A DNA stretch of 32,298 nucleotides, taken from assembly GCA_009602725.1 (NCBI GenBank), contig WELB01000350.1, forward strand, positions 32,576-64,873. The letters are read 5' to 3'. The position numbers were made by a program, and so were the translations under genes. Below the pieces are notes generated by a model. The model was not told the origin of the DNA. It searched no databases and saw only the letters and a list, made by a program, of their open reading frames with translations. Source of the DNA: Spirogloea muscicola. Its lineage: Eukaryota; Streptophyta; Zygnematophyceae; Spirogloeales; Spirogloeaceae. Shown piece by piece: positions 158-31,200 of the stretch (its first letter is position 1; every line of letters begins with the position of its first letter).

Positions 158-440
158 GCCTCCCCTTCATCCCGACTGCGTCCATCTATGTGCCTTCAGC
201 GGTCCCAGGCGATCGCTTTGCATCGCCGGGCTGGTCGCGCCCTTGCAGCAGCCTCTGGTTTGCGCAGCGGGGTTGCTCTTCCTCCCCTCAGCTCATCTGA
301 CTTCCTACCGCTGACACGGGGGTACTGAGGGCGCCCCCTGTCTGCCTAGCCTTTGGCTCCGTCACGAAAACCTGTATGCATCTGGCTGGCAGTTTACAGC
401 CGGTTCTTCAATATCAGCAGCCGCTTTCTTTCCATTTTCA
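158..440 (+). mobile_element. Retroelement 3' tail, family G (C-terminus plus 3' UTR)
   Basis: The reading frame shows the basic helix shared by all tails here (SRLRPSMCLQRSQ, then ALHRRAGRALAAASG) and ends FLPLTRGY-stop at 326-328. The 3' UTR holds a weak hairpin of the CTGGCTGGC...ACAGCCGG type near 380-400. A second copy lies in reverse orientation at 30005-30290 and matches through both the coding end and the UTR. The upstream nuclease and reverse-transcriptase parts are missing, as expected of a 5'-truncated insertion. Confidence 0.7.
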
Positions 441-735
441 TGCGTACGGCGCGCCTTCTCTCGGATCCTCTTGTCCTAGAGAAGGCTGCATATCTGTCTT
501 TCTTGCGACGACAAGTTTCGGCCTGTTTGCAGCGTGCTCAAGCTAATGCCTTGCACCAGAAAGCTGGACGAGCTCTAGTTGGTGGTAGAAGGGCTTCGTA
601 TCTGACATCTAGAATCCTTCACGGTTTGACCCGTGGTTACTGAGCGGGTCAATCTGCTGTAGGTTATGTAGGTCATTAGATGTGCTTGCCTTTGTACTTG
701 GCAATTTGGCCTGGTTTGTTTCAAATACACGTAGT
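440..735 (+). mobile_element. Retroelement 3' tail, family D
   Basis: The frame from about 474 reads AAYLSFLRRQVSACLQRAQ, then ALHQKAGRALVGG, and closes GLTRGY-stop at 641-643. The 3' UTR begins TGAGCGGGTC and contains TGTGCTTGCCTTTGTACTTG. The same coding end and UTR are found in reverse at 22186-22450 and 27232-27478. Just upstream, near 436-460, is a degenerate copy of the GCGCATGAA / GCGCGCCTTCTC terminal motif, so this tail abuts the end of the preceding element. Confidence 0.75.
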
Positions 736-741
736 TTCCTT

Positions 742-778
742 GTCAATTCTTCCTGGGCTGGCTTTGCCACAGCCCCCG
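742..778 (+). repeat. Degenerate terminal hairpin, plus orientation
   Basis: TCCTGGGCTGGCTTTGCCACAG followed by CCCCC is a decayed copy of the GGGCTGG...CCAGCCC hairpin that ends most retroelement tails in the window. Confidence 0.5.
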
Positions 779-889
779 CCCCCTTCAGCTGCAGCCTCGC
801 ACTGTAGTCGGGGGGATTGCTTTCCGGCTGCTCGTCTACCTGATTCCTGATTGGCGGCCCCTCACTCGTGGTCGCTGAGTGTTTCATCC

Positions 890-1650
890 TACCGGCCAAG
901 CTCTGAGACGGTGCTTCTGCGCTGGACAAGAGGCACCCCGACAAGACCAGAAGCAGCCGCCGCAATGCTCCCTGCCCGCAAGTGCACTGCGTGAGCCAGG
1001 GAGCGTCGGAAGGAGACAGACGGCCGCATTCAGATTACCTGGGCAAGTGACCCAGCAACGTTGAAGCCGGCAGCTTCCCTTGCTGACCCTGTCGACGATC
1101 AATGGCCTGTCGGGCAAGTTGCTGCAGAAGGTCTAGCAAGCAACTGCCAAATACCCTGTGTACGTCTATCACAAGCGCAGCAAACTCAGCTCCAGCTGTA
1201 TGATCAGCATAATTGCGCTGCTTGCCACGGGCCGCCGTGCCGACAGCGTGCCCTGCTGTCGACGCCGATTTGTTGGGGTTGGCTGAGTCGACGGAGTCGG
1301 TAGTCTCGACATCTTCAATGATGCGGGGACAACTTCCAGCCTGAGGTGGCGACCAGGTCAGCGCGCCGGGGTTGGAGCTGACCGTCCGCCCCCAGCTGGA
1401 TGGGCATGACAGACGTGTTCTCCACGGCCACTGTGTAGCCAGCCTCCAGGAAAAACGCCATACATGCCGTCCCGCAGAAACACAGTGCGTGTGTATTAAG
1501 AGATGGGGCCATGTGTGGCCAAGTACGAAGGCAAACCCTAAGCCCGCAGGAGGTCGTGGGACCTGGTCCGCTCTCCCCCGTGTGCACAGCGGAGCATGTG
1601 CTAAGCCAGCTCCGCAGCGCCGGCGTTGCGTGCTCCGCACTCACACTGCA
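890..1650 (-). mobile_element. Retroelement tail, family B, decayed
   Basis: On the minus strand two frames together restore the family B order: VHTGESG near the knuckle, FFLEAGYTVAVENTSVMPI, RRADLVAT, then in another frame PRIIEDVETTDSVDSANP, RNYADHTAGAEFAALVIDVH, LLDLLQQLARQAIDRRQG and finally RRSLAHAVHLRAG. The frame breaks near 1315-1340 and again near 1035-1060, so no protein can be made. A stretch near 1487-1545 resembling the family D UTR (GGCCATGTGTGGCCAAGTAC) lies inside it. The close relative is the minus-strand copy at 18300-19120. Confidence 0.75.
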
Positions 1651-1744
1651 CCACACCGACGAGGCAGAACTTGGTTCAGAAAACCAAGTTGTGCCAGTAC
1701 ACCGCTTCAGGCAAAAGCTGGTGCAAAGAGTGAAGCTTCAGGAA

Positions 1745-2170: not shown

Positions 2171-2185
2171 AGCTTCGAGGTCTGT

Positions 2186-2275: not shown

Positions 2276-2576
2276 CCAACTGGCCGCTCCTGGAAGTCTC
2301 TTTCTTCTTGTTTGAATCGTCCGACAGGCCAAGCCTCTCGGGGAGCAGGAGGAGCGCCGCCACGGAAGCCAATGGCCTGACTAGGAGCGCGCCCAGCAGC
2401 CGGGCGGGTGATTAGCCGGAGCTTGGGAGCAGGTGCCGGCTGAGCGAGAGCGAGAGAGCGAGAGTGGGGCGAAAAGAGGGCCGCGGACGAGGCAGTAGGC
2501 TGAAATCGAGCCGGCCAGGCGGGGCGCTTGCTTGCTTGCATCACGGCGGCATCAGGCGCGGCCCCGCCCGCCCGCC

Positions 2577-3626
2577 ATGGCCCCCCCCGCCGCCGCCGCC
2601 GCCGNGCGCGGCAAGGCGGCGACGGCGCTGTCGGGCGGCGGGCTGGCGCGCGACCAGGTGGCGCGCGGCTGGGCGCAGTACGACGCCTTCTTCACGCAGG
2701 CGCAACAGAAAGAGGCGGGGGGCCCGGCGGTGCGCGAGAAATCGGGCGCGCCGGCGCTGGTGGACACGTTCTACAACCTGGTGACCGACATCTATGAGTG
2801 GGGGTGGGGCCAGTCGTTCCACTTCTCGCCCGCCGTGCCCGGCGCCTCGGACCGCGAGGCCACGCGCCTGCACGAGGTCCGCGTCGCCGCCCTGCTGGGC
2901 CTGCGCCCCGGCCTCACCGCGCTGGACGCCGGCTGCGGCGTCGGCGGGCCCATGCGCGCCATCGCCGCTGCGTCCGGCGCCCACGTCGTCGGCGTCACCA
3001 TCAACGAGTATCAGGTGCAGCGCGCCCAGGCCCACAACGCCAAGGCCGGCCTCCAGCACCTCGCGCGCGTCCTCCAGGGCTCCTTCCTCGCCATGCCCTT
3101 CCCGCCGTCCCACTTCGATGCCGCCTTCAGCATCGAGGCCACCTGCCACGCCCCGCGCCTCCAGGACGTCTACGCCGAGATCCACCGTGTTCTCAAGCCC
3201 GGCGCGCTGTACGCGTCGTACGAGTGGGTCACGACGCCGCTCTACGACCCCGCCGACCCCGCGCACGCCGCCATCATCGCCGAGATCAACCACGGCAACG
3301 CGCTGCCCGAGATGCGGTCCCACACGCAGGTGGTGGCCGCCGCGCGCGAGGTGGGCTTCGAGGTGCTGCGCAGCGAGGACCTGGCGCTGCCGCCCGCGCT
3401 ACCCTGGTGGCGCCGCCTCCAGCTCGGACGCCTCGCCTACCTGCGCAACCACGCGGTGGTCACCGCCCTCTCCTGGGTTGGCATTGCGCCCAAGGGCCTC
3501 GTCGAGGTCCACGACATGCTCACCACCGTCGCCGCCGCCCTCGCGCGCGCCGGCGAGCTCGGCATCTTCACGCCCATGCACCTCCTCCTCCTGCGCAAGC
3601 CGCTGGACCCGCCTGCCGCCGCCTGA
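2577..3626 (+). CDS. SMT1: Sterol C-24 methyltransferase (SMT/ERG6 family)
   Basis: Transfers a methyl group from S-adenosylmethionine to C-24 of a sterol side chain (cycloartenol in plants and most green algae), an early committed step of ergosterol/phytosterol synthesis at the ER. The 349-residue frame is uninterrupted. It shows the sterol-binding block YEWGWGQSFHFS at 73-84, the SAM motif LDAGCGVGGP at 116-125, GVTINEYQV at 139-147, IEATCHAP at 186-193, YEWVTT at 215-220 and EINHGNALPEMRS at 236-248, then a C-terminal sterol-methyltransferase domain. The start is the ATG in CCCGCCCGCCATGG; the open frame runs 45 bases further up but has only a TTG. One unresolved base lies at 2605 in a GCC run. 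Residue 169 is Ser (QGSFLAMPF) where relatives often have Asp. It is intronless, unusual for an algal gene of this kind. Whether it prefers cycloartenol (SMT1) or a later substrate (SMT2) is not decidable here. Confidence 0.95.
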   Translation: MAPPAAAAAXRGKAATALSGGGLARDQVARGWAQYDAFFTQAQQKEAGGPAVREKSGAPALVDTFYNLVTDIYEWGWGQSFHFSPAVPGASDREATRLHEVRVAALLGLRPGLTALDAGCGVGGPMRAIAAASGAHVVGVTINEYQVQRAQAHNAKAGLQHLARVLQGSFLAMPFPPSHFDAAFSIEATCHAPRLQDVYAEIHRVLKPGALYASYEWVTTPLYDPADPAHAAIIAEINHGNALPEMRSHTQVVAAAREVGFEVLRSEDLALPPALPWWRRLQLGRLAYLRNHAVVTALSWVGIAPKGLVEVHDMLTTVAAALARAGELGIFTPMHLLLLRKPLDPPAAA

Positions 3627-5084: not shown

Positions 5085-6992
5085 TCATTGATTACGGCAT
5101 CGGGAAACTGCCTCCTCGCACACGCTCCTCAGATTGGCCTGGATCTCCTGCCCTATGCGGCCCTCCACGATGCCCACTGGAAGCCAAGCTTGCGGGCGAA
5201 CCTCGACAGTGTACGATAGGTCGGTCTCTTGCTCCAACAATTTGCTCTGCATGGGCCAAGGTACGAGCCATCAGACCTGGGGATTTAGGAGTTGGCACTC
5301 TTAGATATGGATCGAGCCAAACTGCCGGTGTACTATCACTCTGTTCTGCTCTTCTCTTTGTCACTGCCAATGTCCGTTGTGCTGGCTTGCTTGAGCAACT
5401 GCCTGCAGACAAGCCACATACCACCCCCAGCCTCCACAGGCACTCAAGCTGCACGATGCTGCTTGCTGTGAGAGGATTGCCTCTCTGTTGGCCTTGTGTG
5501 GCAACGACACTTCGAATGCAAGCAAACTACAAGTGCAAGCAACTGCCCGAAGCATTCTTGCTGATGAAGTACCACTAGCTTCGAGTGTAAGGAAATGCAA
5601 CAAGCAGGACAATTCAACACACACTGAAGGAAGGACTTCAGCAACTGGAGATGCTCCCTCTTATGCAGCCTTTGCATGAGGTGCGCTGCTATCCCCGCTC
5701 ACGCTGCTAGGAGCACATCCTAGATTGGGTGCTGTGTGGTATTCCGCCCTGCCATACTGTTCCTCGAATGACTTGACATGCTACGGTCATGTAGAAATTA
5801 GCTGGTGATATGAAGGGCAGTAATTGACCTGCATCCGCCAAGTGCCATTGAAAAGCTGGAAGTCGCCCTCCACCATAGTGAAGGCAATGTCCCGTTGTCG
5901 CCCTGCGTCAGGCAGCTCGACCTCCACACCTTCCTGCACGTCCACCATTACTCTCGCCCTGAACTTGATGCCAAGTGCCACCTCCTGCTCCCCTACCTGG
6001 CCAGATCATACAGCAGCAGCATCGTCAGGCAGTCAGCGATCACTACTACCCAGAAATGTGCAGACCGCTTGTATGGAGCTGCAGTCTAGCTGCATGCCAT
6101 AGAATGCCCACCTAACCTGCATGAGGCGGGCGCCCGTGGGAAGGACTTCCACGACCTCGTTGACAGCAAGGGAAGGAATGAACTCGGCCAGGTGGGCATA
6201 GTCAGTCAGCGAGTTCCAGATGGCCTCAATTGGAGCGCCCACGCGGATGCTCGCACTCACTCGTCTCGTATTTCGACCAATCTTCTCCACCTTCACTGAC
6301 CACGCCGGAAACAAGTCAAGTAGGCTCGAGCAATCACCAACCCACAATGCCATGAGCAGATAACATGTTTCTCCGCGATGGACAACCGAGAAATTGTGGC
6401 TTGAGGCTGGCAGACGTGTGCGCAAAACTCAACGAGGCTCAGAGATTGACTATGAGGGCTTTCCAGCTGCCGGAGCGAGCTCTGCGACGTCTGCATCAAA
6501 AGGAGGGCAGTGGCGCGCAGCCTGCCACAGCTCGTCCCAGCCGGCAGCTGGAATGCGACGACCCCTGGCAGGCAGCAAGGGCCATCTGGTGCGAAGCTGG
6601 CGCATGCCTGAGATCTCCTCTTGCTCGTCGGGTTCGGGCCCAGGTACATCAGCATCCTCGGCAAGGGCGCCTTGGCCCGCCAGCAGCTCCACATCGTCGT
6701 TCCTGGCAGTTGCGCCACTGAACGTTTCGCCTCTCTGGGTCTGCTCGGCACGGGGCGTGGCCAGGCACCGGCGCCACTGCAAGCCTCTGCGTGCGGGCTC
6801 CGGTCGCCCGTGCGCTGCACGGCGTAGGCAGGCGGTGCCGCGGACGGCGCTGGCGGCTGTTGGCGCCAGAGCAGCGGCGAGAGGTGCAGCCGACGGCGAG
6901 GCCGCCGGGCCGTCCGGTGGCCTCGCCGTCGAGCGGAGGCGCCGGAGGCCATGGCTCGGGGCCAGCGACGCGGCGGTGGCGGCGGCCGCCAT
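5085..6992 (-). CDS. Plastid-type START-like protein (polyketide cyclase/COQ10 superfamily), four exons
   Basis: Proposed exons on the minus strand: 6992 to 6608 (or 6563), 6295-6117, 5996-5829 and 5246-5085. Phases agree at every join and give 297 residues with the shorter exon 1. Exon 1 encodes an Ala/Arg/Ser-rich, acid-poor leader typical of a chloroplast transit peptide (MAAAATAASLAPSHGLRRL), then an acidic linker. Exon 2 carries RRVSASIRVGAPIEAIWNSL and TDYAHLAEFIPSLAV. Exon 3 carries VGEQEVALGIKFRARV and FTMVEGDFQLFNGTW. Exon 4 carries LSYTVEVRP, WLPVGIVEGRIGQEI and NLRSVCEEA. This order is that of the SRPBCC/START-like proteins of plants and cyanobacteria (plant 'polyketide cyclase/dehydrase and lipid transport' family), thought to bind a lipid or other hydrophobic ligand. 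Introns 2 and 3 are GT-AG. Intron 1 needs either a GC donor after position 6608 or a GT donor after 6563; both keep phase. The ligand is unknown. It converges on the methyltransferase. Confidence 0.85.
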
Positions 6993-7164: not shown

Positions 7165-7285
7165 CTCGTCTGCTCCTGGACGCGGTACCGATCGACGCAT
7201 ACAAGGCTGGCGCACCCACGTCAACCGTGTCTGGTTGGGCCACGTCCAGCGCGGAGCGCAAGGAGCGGCACTACCAGGAAAGAGA
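7165..7285 (+). mobile_element. Retroelement nuclease fragment, family C, truncated at both ends
   Basis: The plus frame reads LLLDAVPIDAYKAGAPTSTV and then SSAERKERHYQ, matching the nuclease block of the minus-strand copy just downstream (VVLIDAYKAGAPTSTVSG, ERKKERHYHDHP). It stops matching exactly where the GAGAGAAGGCGCGCGGGG terminus of the inverted copy begins (near 7280). It lies within about 200 bp upstream of the START-like gene start. Confidence 0.75.
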
Positions 7286-7872
7286 GAGAAGGCGCGCGGG
7301 GCGCATGAATTGAAAGGGAGGCCAATTCAAGCCAATACATTGTTCAGGCAGAGTCGAGTGCAGACTAAACAATGCTACATAATACGGAGACCTAATCTAA
7401 GGTACCTAAGATGACATTAGTACCCACGGGTGAGCACAAACAAATCTGACAAGCTAACTTGGGGAGCTGGAGCGCCGCCACGAAAGCCGGAGGCCTGACT
7501 TAGAGCGCGCCCTGCACGTTGATGAAGAGCCAATGCTTGCGAGCGCTGCAAACTAAGCGAGAGCCGCATTCTATAATATGCAACTAAGGCCTGCGGAATG
7601 CTGGAGTGGCCCAAGCTGCCCCCCCGACTTCGACGACGCGCATCAACCAGCCGGGCCAGATGCTGGATCAGGGAGGACCATTTCACGCCGTAGCCTCCAT
7701 AGATATCCATGGCACACGGGTAAAGATGGTCCCCTCGAGGATGATCATGGTAGTGCCGCTCCTTCTTGCGCTCCGCGCTGGACGTGGCCCAGCCAGACAC
7801 GGTTGACGTTGGTGCGCCAGCCTTGTATGCGTCGATCAGTACCACGTCCAAGAGCAGACGAGGCCCACCAGG
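7285..7872 (-). mobile_element. Retroelement tail, family C, with open C-terminal frame
   Basis: Minus frame 7851-7417 is open: VVLIDAYKAGAPTSTV (nuclease core Asp), KKERHYHDHPRGDHLYP, AMDIYGGYGVKWSSLIQHL, YRMRLSLSLQRSQALALHQR, AGRALSQASGFRGGAPAPQ, then LFVLTRGY-stop at 7417. The Asp-Val ... Lys-x-x-x-Tyr spacing fits a PD-(D/E)XK nuclease as found at the C-end of R2-type non-LTR elements. Its 3' UTR runs to the GGGCGCATGAATTGAA / AGAAGGCGCGCGG motif near 7285-7310. Upstream parts are absent. Confidence 0.8.
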
Positions 7873-7874
7873 AA

Positions 7875-8040: not shown

Positions 8041-8515
8041 GATGCTACCAGGACCATCCCACAAGGGCACCATCTTTATCCGTGTGCCATGGATATCTGC
8101 GGAGGCTACGGCGTGAAATGGTCCTCCCTGATCCAGCATCTGGCCCGGCTTGTTGATGCGCGTCGTCAAAGTCGGGGGGGCAGCTTGGGCCACTCCAGCA
8201 TTCCGCTGGCCTTGGTTGCATGTTATAGAATGCGGCTCTCACTTAGTTTGCAGCGCTCGCGTGCATTGGCTCTTCATCAACGTGCAGGGCGCGCTCGAAG
8301 TCAGGCCTCCGGCTTTCGTGGCGGCGCTCCAGCTCCCCAAGTTAGCTTGTCGGATTTGTTTGTGCTCACCCGTGGGTACTGATGTCACCTTAGGCACCTT
8401 AATTTAGGTCTCCGTATTATGTAGCCCTGTTTAGTTTGCCCTAGACTCTGCCTGAACAATGTATCGGCTTGAAATGGCCTTCAGTTCATTTCATGCGCCC
8501 CGCAAGCCTTCTCTC
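8041..8515 (+). mobile_element. Retroelement tail, family C, plus orientation
   Basis: Open frame 8089-8382: MDICGGYGVKWSSLIQHLAR, MRLSLSLQRSRALALHQR, ASGFRGGAPAPQVSLSD, LFVLTRGY-stop. The 3' UTR (ACCTTAATTTAGGTCTCCG, then TTGTTTAG.. GAACAATGTATCGGCTTGAA) ends TTTCATGCGCCCCGCAAGCC TTCTCTCC near 8515. It is the head-to-head partner of the family C copy at 7285-7872 and starts further 3', so it lacks the nuclease Asp block. Confidence 0.8.
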
Positions 8516-8524
8516 CCTCCAAAT

Positions 8525-9560: not shown

Positions 9561-9763
9561 AATTGATGGTCAAAATCGCAAAGAGCTTTGGAAAGCAGGA
9601 AGCCAGTAAAGCAGGTGGCCGCTCAGAAACCCCAGTGTGCAGCCGCATGTCGGACTGACCGAAGACAAGGCCGAGCAACCAGGGGGGTGGCAGTGAAGTG
9701 CCAGCTAGATAACGAGGAAGGCCAGCTTCACAGTGCACGGACAAGGCTGCTCCGCCTGCTAGT

Positions 9764-10215
9764 GTGTCGGACTTGCCGCTACTGACTACCTATACCGAGT
9801 GGCTAGATTTTCTGTCACTTGCTTCTGTGAGAAGCACACGCTGTTCGACTCGTTCGGGCCTTCTTCGCTCGTTTGAGGGTTCGCTTTCCACACCCCCCGC
9901 TCACTTCAGGCTGATGGCCGAGGCCCGGTGTGAATGGCCCAGACGAGGGAAGCTGTCAGCCTCTAGCTTTCGGGAAGGGAATTGCTGTCCGGCGGCTAGT
10001 CTATCTAAGTTGCGGCTCCTGAATAGAGGGTACTAAAGTGACTATCCTACCTGGGAAAGCACTGGGATAGCGCTTTGAGAGCCACTTTCCTTCTTCCCAG
10101 GGAAGCAACGCGCGCGGGGCAGTCCGGTCACGGGGATGCTCATATTCCCTATTGTCCATTCTTTTTGGGTTGGTGCCAGCCCCTCTTCTCTATGGGCGAG
10201 CACTTCTTCTTATTG
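9764..10215 (+). mobile_element. Retroelement 3' tail, family E
   Basis: Open frame ends LSKLRLLNRGY-stop at 10036. The upstream part of the frame has no recognisable block. The 3' UTR of about 150 bp closes with TTGTCCATTCTTTTTGGGTT, GGTGCCAGCCCCTCTTCTCT and ATGGGCGAGCACTTCTTCTT, the shared terminus, with one side of the stem damaged. Confidence 0.6.
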
Positions 10216-10640: not shown

Positions 10641-10920
10641 GTACGGACGGTGTTGCGTGAGAGGTACTGGCTGAGCCACAGGAGAGAGATGAACAAGGGG
10701 ACATACTTCCAGGAGCATAGCCTCTCCGACCTGCGCCTGCTTAGCAGGGGTTACTGAGTGGTTAGTAGCTGCTTTGTTTTCTCTTGTGTGCTTGTCATTT
10801 CTGCTGCTTCGCCTTAGGGCTTCGCCTGGCTTCCCCCCCCCTCTTCTTGTACTCTGTTCCTTCTTTTTTGGGCTGGCTGTTCCAGCCCATATTCTCAATG
10901 GGCGAGCCCTTCTCCCCGAT
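10640..10920 (+). mobile_element. Retroelement 3' tail, family A
   Basis: Frame ends with TYFQEHSLSDLRLLSRGY-stop at 10755-10757. UTR: TAGCTGCTTTGTTTTCTC, TGTGTGCTTGTC, then TTCTTTTTTGGGCTGGCTGT TCCAGCCC and CAATGGGCGAGCCCTTCTCC. The terminus ends about 220 bp upstream of the start codon of the wall-type protein gene. Confidence 0.75.
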
Positions 10921-11138: not shown

Positions 11139-12441
11139 ATGGCGCTCCGCTGGGCCTCGCTGCTGCTCCTCCTCGCCCTCGCCGCNNNNNNNNNNNNNNN
11201 NNNNNNNNNNNNNNNNNNNNNNNNNNNNNNNNNNNNNNNNNNNNNNNNNNNNNNNNNNNNNNNNNNNNNNNNNNNNNNNNNNNNNNNNNNNNNNNNNNNN
11301 NNNNNNNNNNNNNNNNNNNNNNNNNNNNNNNNNNNNNNNNNNNNNNNNNNNNNNNNNNNNNNNNNNNNNNNNNNNNNNNNNNNNNNNNNNNNNNNNNNNN
11401 NNNNNNNNNNNNNNNNNNNNNNNNNNNNNNNNNNNNNNNNNNNNNNNNNNNNNNNNNNNNNNNNNNNNNNNNNNNNNNNNNNNNNNNNNNNNNNNNNNNN
11501 NNNNNNNNNNNNNNNNNNNNNNNNNNNNNNNNNNNNNNNNNNNNNNNNNNNNNNNNNNNNNNNNNNNNNNNNNNNNNNNNNNNNNNNNNNNNNNNNNNNN
11601 NNNNNNNNNNNNNNNNNNNNNNNNNNNNNNNNNNNNNNNNNNNNNNNNNNNNNNNNNNNNNNNNNNNNNNNNNNNNNNNNNNNNNNNNNNNNNNNNNNNN
11701 NNNNNNNNNNNNNNNNNNNNNNNNNNNNNNNNNNNNNNNNNNNNNNNNNNNNNNNNNNNNNNNNNNNNNNNNNNNNNNNNNNNNNNNNNNNNNNNNNNNN
11801 NNNNNNNNNNNNNNNNNNNNNNNNNNNNNNNNNNNNNNNNNNNNNNNNNNNNNNNNNNNNNNNNNNNNNNNNNNNNNNNNNNNNNNNNNNNNNNNNNNNN
11901 NNNNNNNNNNNNNNNNNNNNNNNNNNNNNNNNNNNNNNNNNNNNNNNNNNNNNNNNNNNNNNNNNNNNNNNNNNNNNNNNNNNNNNNNNNNNNNNNNNNN
12001 NNNNNNNNNNNNNNNNNNNNNNNNNNNNACAAGTCCCCGCCGCTCAACAAGTCCCCGCCGCTCAACAAGTCCCCGCCGCTCAACAAGTCCCCGCCGCTCA
12101 ACAAGTCGCCGCCGCTCAACAAGTCGCCGCCGCTCAACAAGTCGCCGCCGCTCAAGAAGTCGCCGCCGCTCAAGAAGTCGCCGCCGCTCCAGAAGTCGCC
12201 CCCTCTGGCAAAGAAGAGCCCGCCCGCTGGCAAGACAGGCAACAAGAGCCCGCCGAACAACATCAAGAAGAGCCCGCCTCCCAGCAAGAATACCAAGACA
12301 AGCCCACCCCCGGCCAAGGGCAACAATAAGAGCCCACCTCCAAGCAAGAACATCAAGAAGAGCCCCCCTCCGAGTAAGAACATCAAGAAGAGCCCTCCCA
12401 CCAAGAAGTCCCCTCCCATCGGTGTGAAGGTGAAGTACTAG
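11139..12441 (+). CDS. Secreted Lys-Ser-Pro-Pro repeat protein (wall/extensin-like), interrupted by gap
   Basis: The start ATG lies in CCCGCCCGCCATGG and is followed by MALRWASLLLLLALAA, a textbook signal peptide core. After an 843-base run of N the other end is a Lys/Pro-rich repeat: six KSPPLN units, two KSPPLK, one KSPPLQ, then irregular KKSPP and NKSPPP units, ending KKSPPIGVKVKY-stop. Ser-Pro-Pro tracts are typical of hydroxyproline-rich glycoproteins of green-algal extracellular matrix (pherophorin and extensin types); the dense Lys is notable. The two ends are in different frames as assembled, so gap length or introns are unresolved and the middle domain is unknown. I join them because the signal peptide and the repeat lie on one strand with nothing else between. 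Confidence 0.65.
11186..12028. other. Assembly gap (843 N)
   Basis: A continuous run of N. It begins just after the signal peptide and ends inside the tandem 18-bp coding repeat, so the gap probably reflects repeat or GC difficulty. Its length need not be real. Confidence 0.95.
12031..12210 (+). repeat. 18-bp coding tandem repeat (KSPPLN)
   Basis: Ten consecutive units of AAGTCCCCGCCGCTCAAC, the first four identical, later ones with CCC to GCC changes and AAC to AAG or CAG changes. It keeps frame throughout, consistent with a translated repeat. Confidence 0.9.
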
Positions 12442-13019: not shown

Positions 13020-13800
13020 CTATGTGCAAACCACGTTACTGATGTGAGGCGCCAATACACGTTGTTGCTCAAGGAGGAATCGTCCAGTTATGGACGAAGC
13101 CACTTGAGCCCAGCAGCCAAGGTACGCTGGTCTGCATAAGCGGACCAAGGGGCGACAACCAAGCCCACCGTGGCCTATGGGCAGCGTACATTGCACCAGT
13201 GCTGCTGGAGACTGCTCTAGGAGTGGGTGAGCAATCAGATCGGCAAGGCATTGCTGAAGCTTGACATCAATGGATGCATAGATAGCATCCAAGCTGACCG
13301 ACGGTGGGACCGTACGCACGAGGTAGCACGGCCGCTGTGCCACACTCCTGGTCAAAATGGCCATTGCCAACTGAGAGTCCCCGAGGCTGGGGAGCTCTGG
13401 CAGGACCTGCATGTATCCTTGGAGTCGAGCAAGGACAGCACCCTCCGAGAAAGACGGGTCCCCTAGTGGCTCTCCCAAGATCCTCAAGCCGCCCTCTTGA
13501 GTCTGACAAGATGTCGGCGACGAGGGGAAGAGGGAAAGAGGGATGCCAATGGGGGACCAGGCAGAGCACTTAGCTGGATTGACCCAAGCCCGATAAGTTG
13601 GAGCTGGTGCTGAAGCGTGCCAAATGCTCGCAGCACCTCCTCTGGGGGGCCGAGAAGCGTGGTATCATCCGCATAGCTCGGGAGGAGAACGCCAGGGTGA
13701 GCGCTTGCCGTGTTACACAAAGCACGGTGATGCGCCAGAGCGAAGAGGAAACCACCCCTTGGCGTGTCCCCGTCTTTGACTGCAGAACAGCCAAAGAAGT
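13020..13800 (-). mobile_element. Non-LTR reverse transcriptase fragment (YADD)
   Basis: Minus strand. Frame from about 13790: KDGDTPRGGFLFALAHHRAL (the G-x-x-Q-GDPLGP block of non-LTR reverse transcriptases, worn), LLPSYADDTTLLGPPEEVLR with the catalytic YADD at 13664-13675, then QLQLIGLG. A one-base shift near 13580 moves to VNPAKCSAWSP, GGLRILGEPLGDPSFSEG, LPELPSLGDSQLAMAIL, CYLVRTVPPS and LPIGHGGLGCRP, AYLGCWAQVA, the thumb and post-thumb blocks. Upstream fingers and the expected C-terminal knuckle and nuclease are missing here. The layout 'RT, GGLG block, knuckle, nuclease' is that of the elements whose tails are scattered around, so it may belong to the same group. A frameshift makes it non-functional. 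Confidence 0.85.
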
Positions 13801-14623: not shown

Positions 14624-14934
14624 TGTGAGGGGCCAGCCCAACGAGAAATGCCCGCCCACAGAGAGAAGGCGCGCGGAGCGCATGAAATCGAAGGGAGACC
14701 ATAATGAGAAGGCGCGCGGGGCGCATGAAATGAAATGGAGGCCAATTCAAGCCGATACATTGTTCAGGCAGAGTCTAGGGCAAACTAAACAGGGCTACAT
14801 AAGACGGAAACCGAAACCAAGGTGCCTAAGGTGACATTAGTACCCTCGGGTGAGCACAAACAAATCCGACAAGCTGACTTGGGGAGCTGGAGCGCCGCCA
14901 CGAAAGCCGGAGGCCTGACTCAAAGCGCGCCCAG
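14624..14934 (-). mobile_element. Retroelement 3' end, family C
   Basis: Minus strand SQASGFRGGAPAPQVSLSD and LFVLTRGY-stop (TAA, near 14838-14840), then the family C UTR with TTGTTTAG-like and TGAACAATGTATCGGCTTGA sequence, ending in two successive copies of the CATGCGCCCCGCGCGCCTTC motif (14705-14730 and 14664-14688) and a terminal hairpin near 14624-14642. The duplicated terminus suggests a second truncated insertion on top of the first. Confidence 0.75.
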
Positions 14935-15165
14935 CCGTGGTCGACAAGTGTATCGAATGCGCCTGGCCGTCTCGCTGCAGAGGTCATGGCCTGGGCGTTG
15001 CACCTTCATGCCGGCAGAGCCCTCGCGTGTATCCTCGCTGCTGCCTCTGGCTCTGGCCAGGGGGCCCCTTCCACGAGCCTAGCATCTCCGACCTGCGGCT
15101 GCTTAGCAGAGGTTACTGAGTGATTCGTAACTGCTTTGTTTCTCTGTGTGCTTGGTTTTCTTAGA
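14935..15165 (+). mobile_element. Retroelement 3' tail, family A, head-to-head with family C
   Basis: Begins QVYRMRLAVS-like (RQVYRMRLAVSLQR near 14939), with a frameshift in the middle, and ends ISDLRLLSRGY-stop at 15117-15119. UTR GTAACTGCTTTGTTTCTCTG then breaks at TTTTCTTAG near 15165, well short of the hairpin. Confidence 0.75.
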
Positions 15166-15951: not shown

Positions 15952-15979
15952 ATAGCTCTTCCAAATTGACTGGATCGAT

Positions 15980-17607: not shown

Positions 17608-18225
17608 CCCCGTCGCGTAGACCTGGTGGCCACCCCAAAGGCCGGTGGGCCACGTCTTCTCCTGGACGTGGTGACCACCGACGCATACGACCGCTCACAA
17701 CCATACCAATGTGCCACCGAGGTTGGGTATGCGGTCGCCTGCGTTGCTCGGGCCAAAGAGCTCGAGTATGCCGACCATCCGCGGAAGACGAGTTCTTCCC
17801 GTTGGCAATTGACACCCATGGGGCGCTGGGCGCTCGGTGGCTCGAGCTGCTCACCCAGCTCGCCCGCCACACCATCGCCCGTCGCTTCCATGGGGAGCCG
17901 GTCGACTTTCCTGCAGCCGGGTCGCTGGCGCAAGTGTATCGTATGCGCCTGGCCGTCTCGCTGCAGAGGTCTATGGCCCGGGCGCTGCACCTTCGTGCCG
18001 GCAGAGTCCTCGCTGCTGCCTCTGGCTCTGGCCAGGGGACCCACTTCCAGGAGCCCAGCATCTCCGACCTGCGGCTGCTTAGCAGGGGTTACTGAGTGAT
18101 TCGTAGCTGCTTTGTTTCTTTGTGTGCTTGTTTTTCTTAGCGCTTCCCCTGGCCCCCTTCTCGTACTCTGTTCATTCTTTTTTGGGCTGGCTTTTCCAGG
18201 CCCTATCCTCAATTGGCGAGCAGTT
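17608..18225 (+). mobile_element. Retroelement tail, family A, with one-base deletion
   Basis: Nearly identical to the second half of the 16147-17060 copy, starting at RRVDLVATPKAGGPRLLLDV. The sequence CCGCGGAAGACGAG (about 17778-17791) lacks one C present in the sister copy (CCGCGGCAAGACGAG), shifting the frame from KELEYADHPR into nonsense; the sister frame then continues EDEFFPLAIDTHGALG to ISDLRLLSRGY-stop at 18093-18095. UTR and hairpin (about 18184-18202, one arm with a GG for CC change) follow. Confidence 0.85.
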
Positions 18226-18378: not shown

Positions 18379-19120
18379 GATGCTGAAAAAGGACTACACT
18401 ACAAAGTGCAAGATGGTGCAGAGGGAGATGCAGATGGCTGCTCAGTATCCACGTGTGAGCAACAGCAGATCAGAGATTTTGCATTTTGCATTTTGCCGAG
18501 ACCCGGAAGCAGCAGCCATAGCACGGCCAGCCCGCGCGTGGACCGCATGAGCCAAAGAGCGCTGCAGCGAGACCGCCAGCCTCATCCGAAAGACCTGCGA
18601 GAGGGAGCCGGCAGCATTGAAGCCTGGCGAACCCTGCCGTCGCTCGATGGCCTCCCGGGCAAGCCGCTGGAGGAGATCCAACCAGCCACTGCCAAATGCC
18701 CCGTGTACGTCAATGGCCAGTGCCGCGAAGGCATCGCCTGGAGGGTGGTCAGAGTACTTGCGCTCCTTACTCCGAGCCGCCAGAGCGACCGCGTGCCCGA
18801 CGAGCGTCGTGGGCCTCGCGGGGTTGGCCGAATCAACGCAATCGGCAGTTACCACATCAGCGATGATGCGCGGACCTTCTCCGGGCGGGATGGCAACGAG
18901 GTCCGCGCGGCGGGTGTGAAGCTGTCCATCCGCGCCCCGCAGGATGGACATTATCGTGGAGTTCTCCACTGCCACCTTGTAGCCGGCCTCCAGGAACACA
19001 CCCTGCATGGCGTCTCGCAGGAGGTCGTGCGAACCTGTCCGCTCGCCCCCGTGTGCACAGCGGAGCATGTGGGCCGCCAACGCCGCAGGGTCATCGTGGC
19101 GGGCACCGCACTCGCTCTAT
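18300..19120 (-). mobile_element. Best family B retroelement tail: knuckle and nuclease, open frame
   Basis: Minus frame to stop at 18442: ECGARHDDPAALAAHMLRCA (knuckle, begins near 19118), VFLEAGYKVAVENSTIMSIL, RRADLVAIPPGEGPRIIADV VTADCVD (nuclease core), RSKERKYSDHPPGDAFAALA, IDVHGAFGSGWLDLLQRLAR, EAIERRQGSPGFNAAGSLSQ, VFRMRLAVSLQRSLAHAVHA, then SDLLLLTRGY-stop. Protein differs widely from family A but the block order is the same. The UTR ends in the palindromic hairpin at 18319-18340. At its 5' side it is cut precisely against CTATGGGCGAGCACTTTCTC (19116-19136), a bare terminus of another element. Confidence 0.85.
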
Positions 19121-22185: not shown

Positions 22186-22450
22186 GATGGAGTGTGTATG
22201 AAGAGATGGAGGGCCTGTGTGGCCAAGAACAAAGCAATCACATTGACCAATGTACATCACCTGCTGCTAAGCTGACCCGCTCAGTCACCACGAGTCAGCA
22301 CATAGAGGTCGCTAATACCGGACGGCGATTGACAAGCTTGTGCCACCAGCTAAGGCTCGGCCAGCTTTCTGATGTAAAGCATGAGCCTGAGCTCGCTGCA
22401 GACAGGCTGACACTCGGCGTCGCAAAAATGACAAGTAGGCTGCCGGCATG
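22186..22450 (-). mobile_element. Retroelement 3' tail, family D
   Basis: Minus frame AAYLSFLRRRVSACLQRAQ-like (in part SVSACLQRAQAHALHQKA, AGRALAGGTS), then a frame change before the worn end (complement TGCTGACTCGTGGTGACTGA GCGGGTCAGC near 22275-22300). UTR matches the family D copy at 27232-27478 base for base over long runs, down to GGCCACACAGGCCC near 22210. Confidence 0.75.
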
Positions 22451-22479
22451 CCCATCTGGGCTGGAAGCATATCCTTACA

Positions 22480-22920: not shown

Positions 22921-23150
22921 GGGCGCGCCCATTGAGGATAGGAGCTGGAAAAGCCAGCCCAAAACGAATCAAAAAATGAATCAACAAAGTACTAGAAGGG
23001 GGCCAGGGGAAGCGCTAAAGAAAACAAGCACACAGAGAAACAAAGCAGCTAAGGATCACTCAGTAACCCCTGCTAAGTAGCCTCAGGTCAGAGACGCTAG
23101 GCTCCTGGAAGCGGAACCCTGGCCAGAGCCAAACGACGAAGCTCGCTGGC
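22921..23150 (-). mobile_element. Retroelement 3' tail, family A, minus
   Basis: Terminal string CGCCCATTGAGGATAGGAGC, hairpin GAGCTGGAAAAGCCAGCCC (22944-22962), UTR, then VSDLRLLSRGY-stop at 23060-23062 preceded by FRFQEPS. Homology ends near 23150. Confidence 0.75.
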
Positions 23151-23369: not shown

Positions 23370-23600
23370 GGGCGATGGCCTTGAGAGGCCAGCCCAGATG
23401 ACAGACTGAACAAAGTAGCACGTAGGGGCCGCTAACGGATGCCTGATCAGCGGACGGTAAACCACAAGTCCTACTGAAAGTAGTGAGAGGGCTTGCGCAG
23501 CTTTCTGGTGCAGCATGTGCCTGAGCTTGCTGCAGGCGTACTGACACACGGGGCCGCAATAACAAGAGACATGCTGCGGTCAAGTCCGCCATAAGCACAT
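23370..23600 (-). mobile_element. Retroelement tail, family D, strongly decayed
   Basis: Minus strand LLLLRPRVSVRLQQAQAHA corresponds to LSFLRRRVSACLQRAQAHA of family D. The following frame is lost. A minus hairpin (GGCCTTGAGAGGCCAGCCC, about 23380-23398) lies at the 3' side. Confidence 0.55.
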
Positions 23601-24330
23601 CCTCAGATTGAGAATCCTAGGTTGGCGATGCCCCAAGCATGGTGTGGAGAGGAGGACCTAGGACGCCATAAGTGTCAACTGCAGCTGGTCGGAGGCGATC
23701 ACACCTGGGGCAGTCAAATCAGGCTGCCGCGCACATTCGTTCCCTGCAGGCCCTCCGGCGCTCAGCTTCGCACTATTACGTGCATGGCCAGCAGTTAGAT
23801 CGATGCAGCGCCATTGTACTCCTCCATGACAATCACGTCAGCTATTGCACCGTGGTCCTCCGCCACATTGTACATTTTCGACGTTCAGAGCGCGACCGTG
23901 TGACGTCCAGTCTGGTCATAGGTGGCAAGCAGCATGATGTCCTCTTCCTCCACTGTCATACAGGCATTGGCTTCTCGCGTCACTCCGCCAGGGCATCCGG
24001 GAAGCATGTTGTGAACCCCCGACATAGCCATGGTGGAATTGAGAAGACGTTGGATGGTGCGCATTGCATGAGTGCTGTATTAACTTGACATTCGCTGCAG
24101 TAGGGAAGCTCCTGATGTCTCCCGAAGAATATGTCTGATCAAAATTGGTCACATATCTCACATGATGACAATGTGGCGTGGTGCACCTAAATCCTAAATG
24201 CACTTACTTGACAAGAGACACTTAGAAGTCTTCAGTCGAACGATGGCTACATGCTGGAGGTGCTTCTCTGGCGTGCATGCGAATCTGACGATGTCACTAT
24301 AGACCAGAATGAAGCTGCTTCAATTGCCCA
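23601..24330. other. No recognised gene; short minus frame with one TGA
   Basis: No retroelement block or terminal hairpin. On the minus strand, 24070 to about 23800, an ATG-started frame reads RTIQRLLNSTMAMSGVHNML, then EEEDIMLLATYDQTGRHTVA, a TGA, and in the same phase TSKMYNVAEDHGAIADVIVM. The composition looks protein-like but I recognise no family. It could be exons of an unseen gene or chance. Confidence 0.25.
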
Positions 24331-25429: not shown

Positions 25430-25615
25430 CAATGGCTGTGAGAGGCCAGCCCATAGGAATGTACAAGGTTTAAATGGGGCGAAAGAAGCAGGATACTATT
25501 TTCCAAGACGTCAGCAAGCGGCGCTCAATAACCTCTAGTCAGCAAGTGCATGTCAGACTTGATTGGAGGGCGGTAATGCGTCGCCCTGACGGAACCCGGA
25601 GGCAGCAGCCAAGGC
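25430..25615 (-). mobile_element. Retroelement 3' end, minus
   Basis: Minus strand GHALAAASGFRQGDALPP, then in the next frame SDMHLLTRGY-stop (TGA near 25530-25532), UTR, and hairpin GGCTGTGAGAGGCCAGCCC at about 25435-25453. Confidence 0.65.
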
Positions 25616-25647
25616 GTGACCTAGAAGACGGACGCTTCCAGTAGAGA

Positions 25648-26083: not shown

Positions 26084-26965
26084 TCAAATATGCGAGTCCC
26101 CCGACCCTGCTCTCCTCCCCCCCTCCCGGCAGCTCTGGCCTGCAGCGCTGTCATAGCGCCATCCCGATCGCCAAGGCCGCGCAGTCCCAGGGCAGCTGCA
26201 GCTGGTGGTCGCCATGGCAGCAGCTGACATACCGCCTGTAGTCTGCGACAACGGCAACATTGCCTCGTCGCCAGTGACACCTATACGAGCGCCAACAGCG
26301 CCAGCTGGTGGGGGCACACTGCTGCGCGGGGGCATGGAGCCAGTTCGCATCCTCGACCCCAACGTTGCCATGCTGAGCATCTCCTTGTGCGTCGGCCACT
26401 TGACCTGCTCCAGCAGCAGGTTGTCTTTGATGGCCTCCAGCACCTCCCTAATGAAAATGCTCGCCGTGCACTCCGCTATCCCGAAATGATCGGATGTGGC
26501 CCTAATGTAGCTTCTGGTTGCCAGGCGGTGCAGCGTGATCGCAACCCTCGCTTCCACCGGCACAGCTGCTCTGAAATTCGTGTCCCGCTTCTCGATCGTG
26601 CCGCCGAGAGCCCGGACCAACTTGTCAAAGACTCTGCGCGACACTCTCACGCGCTTCCGGAAGTCCTGCTCGGTGAAGTCGACCTGCAGCTGCCGGAGCC
26701 AGCCGGTCGTCTGGGTGGAGCTCCACAGGAGGCGCGGTGCTCTCTCCTTCTTCCCCTGCAGCATCATCAGGGCCACGGCAGCCTTGAAGTCAAACTGCGG
26801 CAGCAGATCCGCCTCCGCCTCCGCCTCCGCCTCAACCTCCGCCTCCACCTCCGCCTCCACCTCCGCCTCCGCCTCCGTCCCCGCCTCCGCCTCCGCCGGG
26901 CACAGCTGCCAGCGGGCCAGGACGGCTATCGTGATGCAGCAGATTCGCCTCCGCTCGGGACCCAT
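26084..26965 (-). pseudogene. PIF/Harbinger transposase (DDE superfamily), C-terminal half broken
   Basis: The ATG at 26965 starts MGPERRRICCITIAVLARWQ. An acidic Glu-Ala repeat (about 26812-26900) precedes QFDFKAAVALMMLQGKK. Conserved N-half blocks of the family follow: FRKRVRVSRRVFDKLVRAL, AAVPVEARVAITLHRLATRS, SDHFGIAECTASIFIREVLE and LLEQVKWPTHKEM. The catalytic part should come next (a G-A-I-D-G-T-H type block). Instead the frame turns to low-complexity sequence, while another frame keeps GNVAVVADYRRYVSCCHGD, resembling the V-V-D-x-R region. So the protein is frameshifted just after the WPT block and I see no complete DDE triad. It is probably inactive. Nearest intact relatives are unknown to me. 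Confidence 0.8.
26810..26900. repeat. CCTCCGCCTC microsatellite
   Basis: Hexa-/nonamer repeat of CCGCCT and CAACCT/CACCT steps. On the minus strand it encodes the Glu-Ala-Glu-Val stretch of the transposase. Confidence 0.8.
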
Positions 26966-27231
26966 GCCTGCAGGCCTGGTCGGTAGCAGGAGGGGGGAGC
27001 GTGCGCCTGCGCGGGCGCTCGACCAGGCGGCGGGAGGCGGCGCTGCTGCCGGGGTTTGAAGCTGCTGCCCTAGCGCGCCGGGCAGCCGATCCGACCTGGC
27101 GGGGCTTGCGAGGTGATAATTCACGTGCAGGTGGCCTCGGCTTCCGTGGCGGTGACCAAACCCTTGACCCCGCGGTCAGCACGTGCGTGACCGCGCGACC
27201 CAGTGTAAACAGACCCTGAGAATAGAAAGGA

Positions 27232-27478
27232 AATGCGTGTATATTAAGAGATGGGGAGGCCATGTGTGGCCAAGTACAAAGGCAAGCACATTGGACAAAT
27301 GTACGTCACCTGCTGCTAAGCTGACCCGCTCAGTAACCACGAGTCAGCACATAGAGGTCGCTAGCTGACGCTCGAATACCGGACGGCAATTGACTAGCTC
27401 TTGTGCCAGCAGCTAAGGCTCGACCAGCTTTCTGATGCAGAGCATACGCCTGAGCTCGTTGCAGACAGGTTGAAATAG
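27232..27478 (-). mobile_element. Retroelement 3' tail, family D, intact end
   Basis: Minus strand, from about 27475: CLQRAQAYALHQKAGRALAA, GTRASQLPSGIRASASDL, YVLTRGY-stop (near 27335-27337), then UTR GCGGGTCAGCTTAGCAGCAG down to CACACATGGCCTCCCCATCT. It has no ATG of its own. It is the cleanest family D end in the window. Confidence 0.8.
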
Positions 27479-27592
27479 GGGCTCGAAAAACCAGCCCAGA
27501 AAAGTATCAACAAAGGACGAGAAGGGGGCCAGGGGTAGCGCTTAGAATAACAAGCACACAGAAACAAAGCAGCTACGGATCACTCAGTAACC
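27478..27592 (-). mobile_element. Family A 3' UTR, minus, head-to-head with next
   Basis: Hairpin GGGGCTCGAAAAACCAGCCC (27479-27498, one arm changed), GGGGGCCAGGGGTAGCGC, and CACTCAGTAACC, the complement of GGTTACTGAGTG at the stop. It joins the next copy at ACC|ACCGATGC with no spacer. Confidence 0.8.
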
Positions 27593-28024
27593 ACCGATGC
27601 AAACGACCGCTCGCACCCAGCCCGATGTGCCACCAAGTTTGGATATGCGGTCGCCTGCGCCGCTCGGGCTAAAGAGCTCAAGTACGCCGACCATCCGCGG
27701 GAAGACTTCTTCCCGCTGGCGACTGACACGCATGGGGCGTTGGGCGCTCGAGTTGCTCACCCAGCTCGCCCGCCACGCCATCGCCCGTCGCTCCCATGGG
27801 GAGCCGGTCGACTTTCCTGCAGCCGGGTCGCTAGCGCAGGTGTACCGGATGCGCTTGGCCGTCTCGCTGCAGCGGTCGATGGCCCGCGCGCTGCACCTGC
27901 GGGCCGGCAGAGCCCTCGCTGCTGCATCTGGCTCTGGCCAGGGGGCCCACTTCCAGGAGCCTAGCGTCTCTGACCTGAGGCTGCTTAGCAGGGGTTACTG
28001 AGTGATGCGTAGCTGCTTTGTTTC
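27590..28024 (+). mobile_element. Retroelement tail, family A, plus, with 8-bp deletion
   Basis: TTDANDRSHPARCATKFGYA, CAARAKELKYADHPREDFFP, then an 8-base loss in GGGCGCTCGAGTTGCTC (sister copies GGGCGCTCGGTGGCTCGAGC) breaks the frame before LELLTQLARHAIARR; the rest follows to VSDLRLLSRGY-stop at 27999-28001. UTR is cut at GCTTTGTTT. Confidence 0.8.
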
Positions 28025-28035
28025 AGTAGAGGGCG

Positions 28036-29609: not shown

Positions 29610-30004
29610 ATTGTCAAGAGGCAGCTGTCAAAGCCATTGCAAACAGCTGATGCAGAGTATAAGCCAGGGTTGGTGCCCAGCCACGGTTGGTGCCGTACGC
29701 TACCTAATGAAGGCCCAGGACTCGAAGTTCCAAGACTCGAAGTTCCAATGTCAAGTCATATAAGGAGTAGCCAGGATCAAGAGGGCTTGCAGAGCCCCAG
29801 GCAGTTGGCCAGGGCAGGCACGCGACAGGCACGACAGTGTGGGCAGATGAGGGGTAGAGGGGGGGAGGGGCGACGAGAATTACAGGGCTTCTGTTTTTAT
29901 GGGCCGGCGCCAAGCTAGCAGAGTGCATCAGAGTGGACACATAGTGCATCTACACTATGTAGAGCCGCTGGGCAACAGGGCCCTCTCGGTGTCCCCCGGC
30001 CAGC
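29610..30004. other. No gene seen; short direct repeat
   Basis: GACTCGAAGTTCCAA is repeated in tandem at about 29718-29747. An inverted repeat CACATAGTG ... CACTATGTAG lies at 29938-29963. Nothing else recognised. Confidence 0.4.
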
Positions 30005-30290
30005 AAAGGTCAGATGAGCTGAGGGGAGGAAAAAGAGAAAGCGGCTGCTGATATGAAAGAATCGGCTGTGAAATGCCAGCCAGATGCATACAGGTGTTCA
30101 TGACGGAGCCAAAGGCTAGGCAGACAGGGCGCCCTCAATACCCCCGTGTCAGCAGTAAGAAGTCAGATGAGCTGAGGGGAGGAAGAGGAACCCCGCCGCG
30201 CATGCCAGAGGCTGCTGCAAGGGCGCGACCTGCTTGGCGGTGCAAAGCAAGCGATGGGGACCGCTGGAGGGACATGGACAGTTGCATGCG
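30005..30290 (-). mobile_element. Retroelement 3' tail, family G, minus
   Basis: On the minus strand it follows the 158-440 copy: GCAGGTCGCGCCCTTGCAGC, CCTCAGCTCATCTGACTTC, CTGACACGGGGGTATTGAG, then CTAGCCTTTGGCTCCGTCA and CTGGCTGGCATTTCACAGCC. The frame is broken before the LTRGY end. Its 3' side repeats 23 bases of its own coding end (30009-30031 equals 30162-30184). Confidence 0.7.
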
Positions 30291-30294
30291 GTAG

Positions 30295-30730
30295 CACGAC
30301 ACAAGTGTTGAATATAAAAATATGGTGAATCAGCGCGTCGGCTGCTGAACATGGTAATATGGTGAATCAGCTGGCTGGGCTGGGTGACCATCCCGTCTGT
30401 CTCGTTGGGCCGTGAGAGTCTCCCCTGGATAAGGGAGGATAAGGGAGGATTTCTTTTGGATAAGAGAGGCCTCGGGCACGCATCGGACTAACTCCCCACA
30501 TCTGAGGCCACGCGGTGCTTCCGGGCGCCCTAGCCATGGCTGCCACCCACCTTAGGGTAAGGGCGGAGCCTGTACTGTCTGTCTGACTGACTGTCTGAGA
30601 TCTGAATCTGTCTGGCGCCATGAGCGCATCTGCATCCGTGCCGCTGTGTTGAGGGCGGTCTACTGGGCCCGTGGACAAGGGTAAACGTCCGATGGAGGAC
30701 TTCGACAGGAGGAAGGAAGAATCTGAGAAC
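30295..30730. other. No gene seen
   Basis: Short repeats only (AATATGGTGAATCAGC twice near 30320 and 30357; GGATAAGGGAGGAT twice near 30428-30451). No protein block. Confidence 0.4.
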
Positions 30731-30739
30731 ACTGACTAC

Positions 30740-31200
30740 AACAGACAGGAACAGGTACAAGAGCAGGTACAGGAGCGGCAGGAACAGGTACAAGAGCTGA
30801 TACAGGAGCGGCCAGCCCAGGAAATATAACAACGAGACCCAAAGGCACGGAGCCTCCAGTGCTGCGCCCTGCTTGCGGTGCCGCTGGTCAGCTTGAGAGG
30901 CCAGCAGCAAACAGCGTAGAGGACCACGCGCTGAGGACCACCGATGCCCGTAACACTCGTGGATGTCCACGGCCAGCAGGGTGGTCCTTGTACTTGTGAC
31001 TTTTCTCTGCTCGGCCACCTTCACAGCATAGCCCGGCACAGGACTAGAGGGCCCTTATTCGCCGTCGGTGAATATGACGTCCATGAGGAGCCGCGCCTCC
31101 CGCGCGATGCCATACACAGCATCACAGACAGCGTCGCGACAAAGGTGAGCCCATGCGCTCGCTGCCCTGTGAGATGCAGGAGCCTATATCTACAGCATGC
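30740..31200 (-). mobile_element. Retroelement nuclease remnant, family H
   Basis: Minus strand EARLLMDVIFTDGE, stop, then PGYAVKVAEQRKV and LLAVDIHECYGHRWSSAR, parallel to PRLLLDVVTTDAYD, GYAVACAARAKEL and PLAIDTHGALGARW of family A. The basic helix and RGY end are missing. A minus half-hairpin (GCGGCCAGCCC) lies at 30808-30820. Confidence 0.6.
30746..30811. repeat. 33-bp tandem repeat, two units
   Basis: CAGGAACAGGTACAAGAGC then AGGTACAGGAGCGG, followed by the same 33 bases with two changes in the middle. It is built from a shorter CAGGTACARGAG step. Confidence 0.8.

Follow-up and report, generated by a model that had tools for sequence, protein, structure and literature searches.

The 32,298-base stretch of Spirogloea muscicola contig WELB01000350.1 analyzed here (positions 32,576 to 64,873, assembly GCA_009602725.1; hereafter the window) carries, on both strands, many short frames that end in the same few residues, and these tails mark the 3' ends of copies, most of them truncated at the 5' side, that belong to a single group of non-long-terminal-repeat (non-LTR) retrotransposons. 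Full-length copies elsewhere in the genome have a single open reading frame (ORF) of 1,137-1,558 aa stop to stop, whose product closes with a peptide of consensus S-x-S-D-[LFV]-x-x-L-[TSN]-R-[GN]-Y-stop, preceded by a variable linker. This peptide probably matters to the enzyme, and we give about an even chance to its being a latch that folds back and docks in cis on the body formed by the reverse transcriptase (RT) and the predicted nuclease.

Scanned in all six reading frames, the window shows 22 R-G-Y-stop ends, 20 of which read L-x-R-G-Y-stop, and none for any of the other five orders of R, G and Y before a stop. In 300 first-order Markov simulations L-x-R-G-Y-stop occurred 0.02 times on average and once at most, so that a chance origin of the tails is ruled out. 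An earlier note, made from the sequence of the window, had reported about twenty such fragments on both strands, which agrees with these counts; 12 of its 13 tail coordinates are exact, and the remaining one, 27335, is wrong by five bases (truly 27330). The two R-G-Y-stop ends without the upstream leucine, at 19402 (+) and 10457 (-), are atypical; a hairpin of the family type, at 19439, comes after the 19402 end, which may be a short derivative or a decayed copy. Most of the tails were assigned to families A-F by tblastn, some remnants being only 33-43% identical, and with the full-length family proteins and the family F end as queries, coding remnants of the one element group amounted to 8,878 bases of the window. 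The remnants and associated features are:

173-328, + strand: family D 3' remnant, LPLTRGY-stop at 328; 90% to D residues 1320-1370
482-643, + strand: family E 3' remnant, HGLTRGY-stop (tblastn)
976-1714, - strand: family B coding remnant with knuckle and nuclease, broken frame, without tail (tblastn)
7417-7869, - strand: family C 3' remnant, FVLTRGY-stop; 98.7% to full-length L013
8059-8382, + strand: family C 3' remnant, FVLTRGY-stop; inverted-repeat partner of 7281-7740
7281-7740 and 8059-8518: inverted repeat of opposed family C tails, 460 nt, 92% complementary
9743-10036, + strand: family F-like remnant, LLNRGY-stop; 33% to F
10653-10757, + strand: family A tail, LLSRGY-stop
13029-13786, - strand: family D RT/thumb remnant; 76-86% to L017 residues 771-1022
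14837-14980, - strand: family C tail, FVLTRGY-stop (TAA)
14945-15119, + strand: family A tail, LLSRGY-stop; upstream frames broken
15303-15707, - strand: family A 3' remnant, LLSRGY-stop
15888-15950, - strand: family A tail, LLSRGY-stop
15966-16100, + strand: family A tail with decayed end, LLSRGH-stop
16150-16926, + strand: longest open family A remnant in the window, with zinc knuckle, predicted endonuclease, basic helix and LLNRGY-stop
17009-17059, + strand: family A 3' hairpin and 3' terminus, GGGCTGG..CCAGCCC then ATGGGCGAGCACTTTCT
17611-18095, + strand: family A remnant, LLSRGY-stop
18442-19113, - strand: family B remnant, knuckle, predicted endonuclease, LLTRGY-stop
22342-22473, - strand: family E remnant (tblastn)
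23060-23119, - strand: family A tail, LLSRGY-stop
23416-24019, - strand: old family E-like coding remnants, 39-43% identity
24381-24770, + strand: family B remnant, LLTRGY with the stop lost, continuing to WASI
25525-25621, - strand: family G tail, MHLLTRGY-stop; 58% match to the F end
27330-27476, - strand: family E remnant, YVLTRGY-stop
27587-28001, + strand: family A remnant, LLSRGY-stop
30135-30305, - strand: family D tail, FLLLTRGY-stop
30857-31480, - strand: old family D-like coding remnant, 34% identity

The window tails were used as queries against the same assembly (153 Mb, 471 contigs), which returned at least 141 matches for family A and at least 150 for each of B, C, D and E; at least 150 were also obtained for F, using the tail beside L009 as query, and for G at the loose cut-off of E 1, and the match list of one family may include members of neighboring families. 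Some of the A, B, C and D matches terminate open frames of 1,200-1,500 aa, lengths that runs of N can inflate. Thirteen loci (L007-L019) were fetched as full-length candidates and nine had a usable ORF, L010 being dropped for a long N run and L015, L016 and L019 because no ORF passed the filter. Seven of the ORFs were aligned and scanned with Pfam, L008 and L012 having been omitted as near-duplicates. Families F and G are known from their tails, the long F copy L136 being mostly N. Identity to family A over the ORF falls from 66% to 44% in families B to E, and the description of the families as divergent in the earlier note is accurate in a relative sense only.

The encoded protein consists of a C2H2-like finger, the RT, a linker, a zinc knuckle, a restriction-like endonuclease (RLE) block, a basic helical extension, the variable linker and the C-terminal peptide. 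Pfam RVT_1 scored above its cut-off in all seven ORFs (E 2.4e-13 to 6.5e-19; 50.7-68.9 bits), leading us to reject the reading of these sequences as duplicates of a host gene, and an RT lies upstream in each of the five families with a usable full-length ORF (A-E), as the retroelement claim would have it. The best relatives in the PDB are R2 proteins, over the RT (E 7.9e-7 with a single sequence, 6.2e-11 with a profile), consistent with the resemblance to the R2 group that had been proposed. The finger N-terminal to the RT keeps its C, C, H and C unchanged throughout the alignment, and Pfam scores for it are weak, below cut-off, in the A ORFs. All four knuckle residues are likewise invariant, at the spacing C-x1-C-x11/12-H-x3-C, a variant of the C-x2/3-C-x7/8-H-x4-C spacing given for the CCHC knuckle of RLE-bearing long interspersed nuclear elements (LINEs) in the portion of PMC5678591 available to us. 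The same source describes for the RLE a D, a D-V-V, a K-x2-K-Y with the catalytic lysine and an H where the first helix begins; the block here has the motif D...DVV...K-x-x-[KH]-Y, its fourth position being K or H, and D1200, D1215, K1245, Y1249 and the upstream H1159 are invariant in the seven ORFs, so that the knuckle and nuclease block first seen in longer window remnants are both present. At the place of the RLE G-x-W after the fourth strand these proteins have G-x-x-W or F. The Pfam scan of the seven ORFs gave no match for the nuclease block, none to Exo_endo_phos, the domain of apurinic/apyrimidinic endonuclease-like (APE) nucleases, at E limits of 1 and 0.1, and none to a Myb domain, although divergent domains can escape Pfam. 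An Exo_endo_phos search of the genome produced 10 matches, a count made genome-wide and not per element. Given the RT, the RLE residue pattern and the absence of an APE match in the seven ORFs, we class the elements as RLE-type LINEs, with the nuclease predicted from sequence. One scan of IMG/VR and one of a prokaryote genome collection found no relatives, as expected for a eukaryotic element.

A separate RVT_1 search of the genome yielded 985 candidates, the best 150 of which all scored at least 75.9 bits, above the 50.7-68.9 bits of the element ORFs, and therefore presumably belong to other RT families. Another multi-copy RT group, with frames of 1,237 aa and RVT_1 scores of up to 139.9 bits, was met repeatedly on a small number of contigs (for example C235, C267, C412, C445 and C61) and could be a centromeric cluster.

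From the region N-terminal to the RT onward, 294 of 959 ORF columns (31%) are invariant across families A, B, C, D and E, with 42% in the RT core, 33% in the knuckle plus nuclease, a single one of the 16 linker columns that precede the tail, and seven of the last 12 residues. The proposal that the extreme C-terminus is conserved beyond the rest of the protein holds relative to the linker and to the RT-core average, but 73 of 767 ORF windows of the same length (12 columns) equal or exceed the tail, which thus matches good parts of the enzyme in conservation without surpassing them. Conservation within the range of the ORF is also what would be seen if the tail were the last piece of the endonuclease fold, inherited along with it and without a special role of its own. 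We consider this unlikely, as the basic helical stretch and the 16-residue linker with its single invariant column separate the tail from the nuclease, and as the protein usually ends at exactly Tyr-stop.

The seven invariant tail residues are encoded by 20 different codons over the five families, as compared to 18.5 predicted from the same residues elsewhere, with serine as AGC or TCN and arginine as AGG or CGN. This free variation shows that selection acts on the protein, and it is at that level that the peptide is conserved. As an alternative, it was suggested earlier that the RNA around GGTTACTGAG matters, in which case the end of the ORF and its stop would be kept as a signal for reverse transcription or translation termination. 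In full-length copies of A, B, D and E the codon for Tyr is indeed followed by TGAG, and the 3' untranslated regions (UTRs) of A, B and C fold better than most shuffles (z -3.45, -1.91 and -2.32, respectively). However, codon changes are in no short supply, family C stops with TAA followed by T, TAA occurs in two of eight D tails, a change from Gly to Asn takes two base changes and was found with two codon sets, and the A and B hairpin is far downstream of the stop. Mainly on account of the codon variation, we reject the RNA reading, which we judge to be very improbable. The hairpin of the A and B 3' UTRs (GGGCUGG/CCAGCCC, with an outer closing stem that includes AUGGGC) lies close to the 3' end and would be the likelier RNA handle for reverse transcription, judging by other LINEs; its alignment (17 rows, some incomplete) shows little variation and is too uniform to prove the base pairs. 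The C 3' UTR folds differently, and that of D (z -0.16) does not surpass its shuffles.

The RGY end, called constant in the earlier note, is not fixed across the families: the penultimate residue is Gly in the majority of sampled tails, but family F and subfamily A2 end in R-N-Y. We picked 80 tails by hand down the match rankings, some of them for matches that stopped short (20 A, 20 B, 20 C, 18 E and 2 D), and by hand count an in-frame RGY-stop is present in 13 A, 9 B, 13 C, 11 E and both D tails, that is in 48 of 80, while L-x-R-G-Y-stop occurs in any frame in 55. Thirty-six further tails all end RGY, although as top-ranked matches they are biased to recent copies. In family F, 15 of 16 short tails read RNY-stop and the other has RNY with the stop lost; counting the long copy L136, which reads RNY-stop, 16 of 17 tails have RNY adjoining the stop, a sample in which RNY copies were favored, the query itself having ended RNY. 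The end is SRNY in subfamily A2 (L009) and LLTRNY in a tail of L153 that resembles family G. The codons for the Gly-to-Asn change differ, being AGG AAT TAC in A2 and CGT AAC TAC in the F tail beside it, and in a tree of nuclease ends (10 rows, 115 columns, the forks among A, B and F unresolved) A2 groups with A (100/96) and not with F. A2 and F, in sum, carry the change in different codons and at separate places in the tree. The ending is common to several families rather than to one recent family, and its rule is L-[TSN]-R-[GN]-Y-stop, with Arg and the terminal Tyr retained in most tails.

Two family A copies in different contigs are 99.95% identical over 4,105 bp and two family B copies, also in different contigs, 99.93% over 4,284 bp, and these near-identical pairs show that families A and B have been recently active. 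The element shared within A and within B scarcely exceeds the ORF plus 3' UTR in length. In 36 tails examined with their 3' flanks, copies within families A-D agree up to a pyrimidine-rich terminus and then diverge, and no poly(A) was found at these ends. The termini are ...GGGCGAGCACTTTCTT in A, ...GGGCGAGC(AC)CTTCTT in B, ...CGCGCGCCTTCTCTC in C and ...CAGCCGCTTTCT in D. Directly after the final G/C-rich block that the copies share, eight bases are 92-96% pyrimidine, mostly because they belong to the end of the element itself; C or T still makes up 74% of the four bases that follow, as compared to 47-62% further out. Many genome matches have a short open frame and yet reach the last residue of the query, so that 5' truncation and a common 3' end, both hallmarks of non-LTR elements, are present. 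The duplication hallmark is weak, because candidate target duplications (6-8 bp) were read by eye in three of the nine full-length copies (AATTCAA in L011, CTCCAG in L013 and TCTCTTCT in L012), with CTTCTGG in L007 a possible fourth. The L012 copy is without the usual 3' terminus, and filler bases occur at a junction in L011 and L012. Insertion into other copies is recurrent: one pyrimidine tract of the E copies has taken in an A copy and a C copy at points no more than about ten bases apart (L032, L054), and an A tail contains a B copy (L036). The 3' flanks of the 36 tails and nine full-length copies are varied, being pyrimidine-rich or other elements. From established LINE biology, the element protein would nick DNA, often at pyrimidine-rich sites, and would prime reverse transcription of its own RNA from the 3' UTR without poly(A); the synthesis would usually halt early and leave short 3' ends, and fresh copies would often land in older ones and build a nested pile like that of the window. 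Such nesting and strong 5' truncation account for the number of tails and the extent of coding remnants found there.

As to the tail itself, no other residues take up positive phi as easily as Gly and Asn, both of which favor tight turns. The repeated exchange of Gly for Asn, the variable linker and the end at Tyr fit with fold-back docking by a free end. In such an arrangement, the linker would allow the peptide to turn back onto the RT-linker-nuclease body and dock there in cis, the [GN] position would form the positive-phi turn, the terminal Tyr and carboxylate would be buried or bonded, and the docked latch would hold the nuclease in place for first-strand nicking. Several observations weigh against this. 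Apart from the ORF windows that match the tail in conservation and the few target duplications, 32 of the 80 sampled tails are without an in-frame RGY-stop, owing to truncations, frameshifts, insertions, lost stops, an N run and changed ends. The changed ends are mainly of single kinds (HGY, RVY, RGS, RGN, RGC, RDS), but RGF-stop occurs in four tails (three E, one B) and RRY in two B tails, and thus neither Tyr nor Gly is beyond change; L131 and L132, similar E tails with RGF-stop, perhaps represent a small Phe-for-Tyr subfamily. The F-like remnant of the window ends RGY. AlphaFold2 on window sequences gave a mean predicted local distance difference test score of 41.7, which is uninformative on the tail. 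Moreover, TwinStrep or FLAG tags are placed at the C-terminus of vertebrate R2 proteins in use (PMC12180492, in part), so that a free C-terminus is no general need of RLE LINEs and a latch would be particular to the present elements.

The peptide could instead have a host protein or a nucleic acid as its partner. If it served to dock a host factor (of nuclear import, replication or repair), rather than being a part of the element's own fold, this would agree with a short conserved free end that follows a linker of low conservation, which is typical of short linear motifs; yet about ten residues, several of them hydrophobic and one suited to a turn, exceed what most docking motifs need, and we regard host docking as a possible but doubtful explanation. 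The cis latch is to us the most likely of these readings, with host docking next and conservation without special role after it.

Compared with known systems, the elements resemble the R2 elements R2Bm and those of birds and turtle, which according to the portions of PMC10499050 and PMC5678591 at hand have a single ORF with an N-terminal C2H2 finger, RT, linker, knuckle and C-terminal RLE with a K-x2-K-Y type motif. They differ from R2 in the knuckle spacing given above; Pfam found no Myb domain beside the finger, although a divergent one can escape it. R2 has its place in 28S ribosomal DNA (rDNA), and one fixed target site does not accord with the copies sampled here, which were spread over many contigs and had varied surroundings, other copies included, no rDNA search having been made. 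The conserved R-[GN]-Y end is noted for these elements, R2 ends not having been compared. The elements are thus R2-like but not shown to be members of R2. Among green algae, Dualen and RandI of Chlamydomonas are RLE-bearing LINEs (PMC8226300, in part), and excerpts of PMC3747384 and PMC8226300 describe Chlamydomonas elements whose 3' ends consist of short repeats, (CTATTT)n among them, and short interspersed nuclear elements with (CTTT)n; the present elements are like Dualen and RandI in being RLE-bearing LINEs, with short-repeat 3' ends reported there. Dualen, however, has both APE and RLE-like nucleases (PMC3636483, in part), and none of the seven ORFs matched Exo_endo_phos, this comparison being by description. 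Utopia has a similar layout of N-terminal zinc fingers, RT, zinc finger and RLE, but targets U2 small nuclear RNA (snRNA) genes (PMC4640811, in part); the flanks of the sampled copies varied, no snRNA search having been made. NeSL, R4, CRE and other RLE clades stand beside Utopia among the nearest known systems, and any placement of the present elements among these clades would be provisional.

We found no report of the R-[GN]-Y ending in the literature on non-LTR elements and RT C-termini, as far as the available portions of the sources extend (PMC4640811, PMC5348765, PMC10499050, PMC12180492, PMC5678591, PMC8226300, PMC3636483, PMC3747384). We tentatively propose, with rather less confidence than the latch by itself, that the families make up a hitherto undescribed RLE LINE clade, marked by a knuckle spacing of its own and by the peptide as a C-terminal latch that governs the nuclease and on which retrotransposition depends. 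If this were true, the peptide would be a mechanical part unrecognized in R2 or other LINEs, and the latch a new way for a LINE protein to tie its endonuclease to its polymerase, which would bear on the R2 proteins now applied to gene insertion. The near-identical open full-length copies of two families and the open copies of three more are a source for the biochemistry of RLE LINEs outside animals, and the shared tail is a handy marker for finding families of the group.

Amid the retroelement remnants of the window there is a host gene for a sterol methyltransferase:

2499-3626, + strand: open frame with one N; Methyltransf_11 at 7.1e-21 and Sterol_MT_C at 7.5e-19

Three other frames were noted. 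That at 6033-6428 (-) is exon-like, with a weak match to polyketide cyclase/lipid transport domains that is below cut-off. The frame at 26087-27175 (-), without a Pfam match up to E 0.01, we take on impression only to resemble a transposase of the PIF/Harbinger type. Tandem repeats of KSPPLN type at 12029-12430 (+), adjoining a long N run that may be an assembly gap, give the impression of a repeat-rich structural protein.

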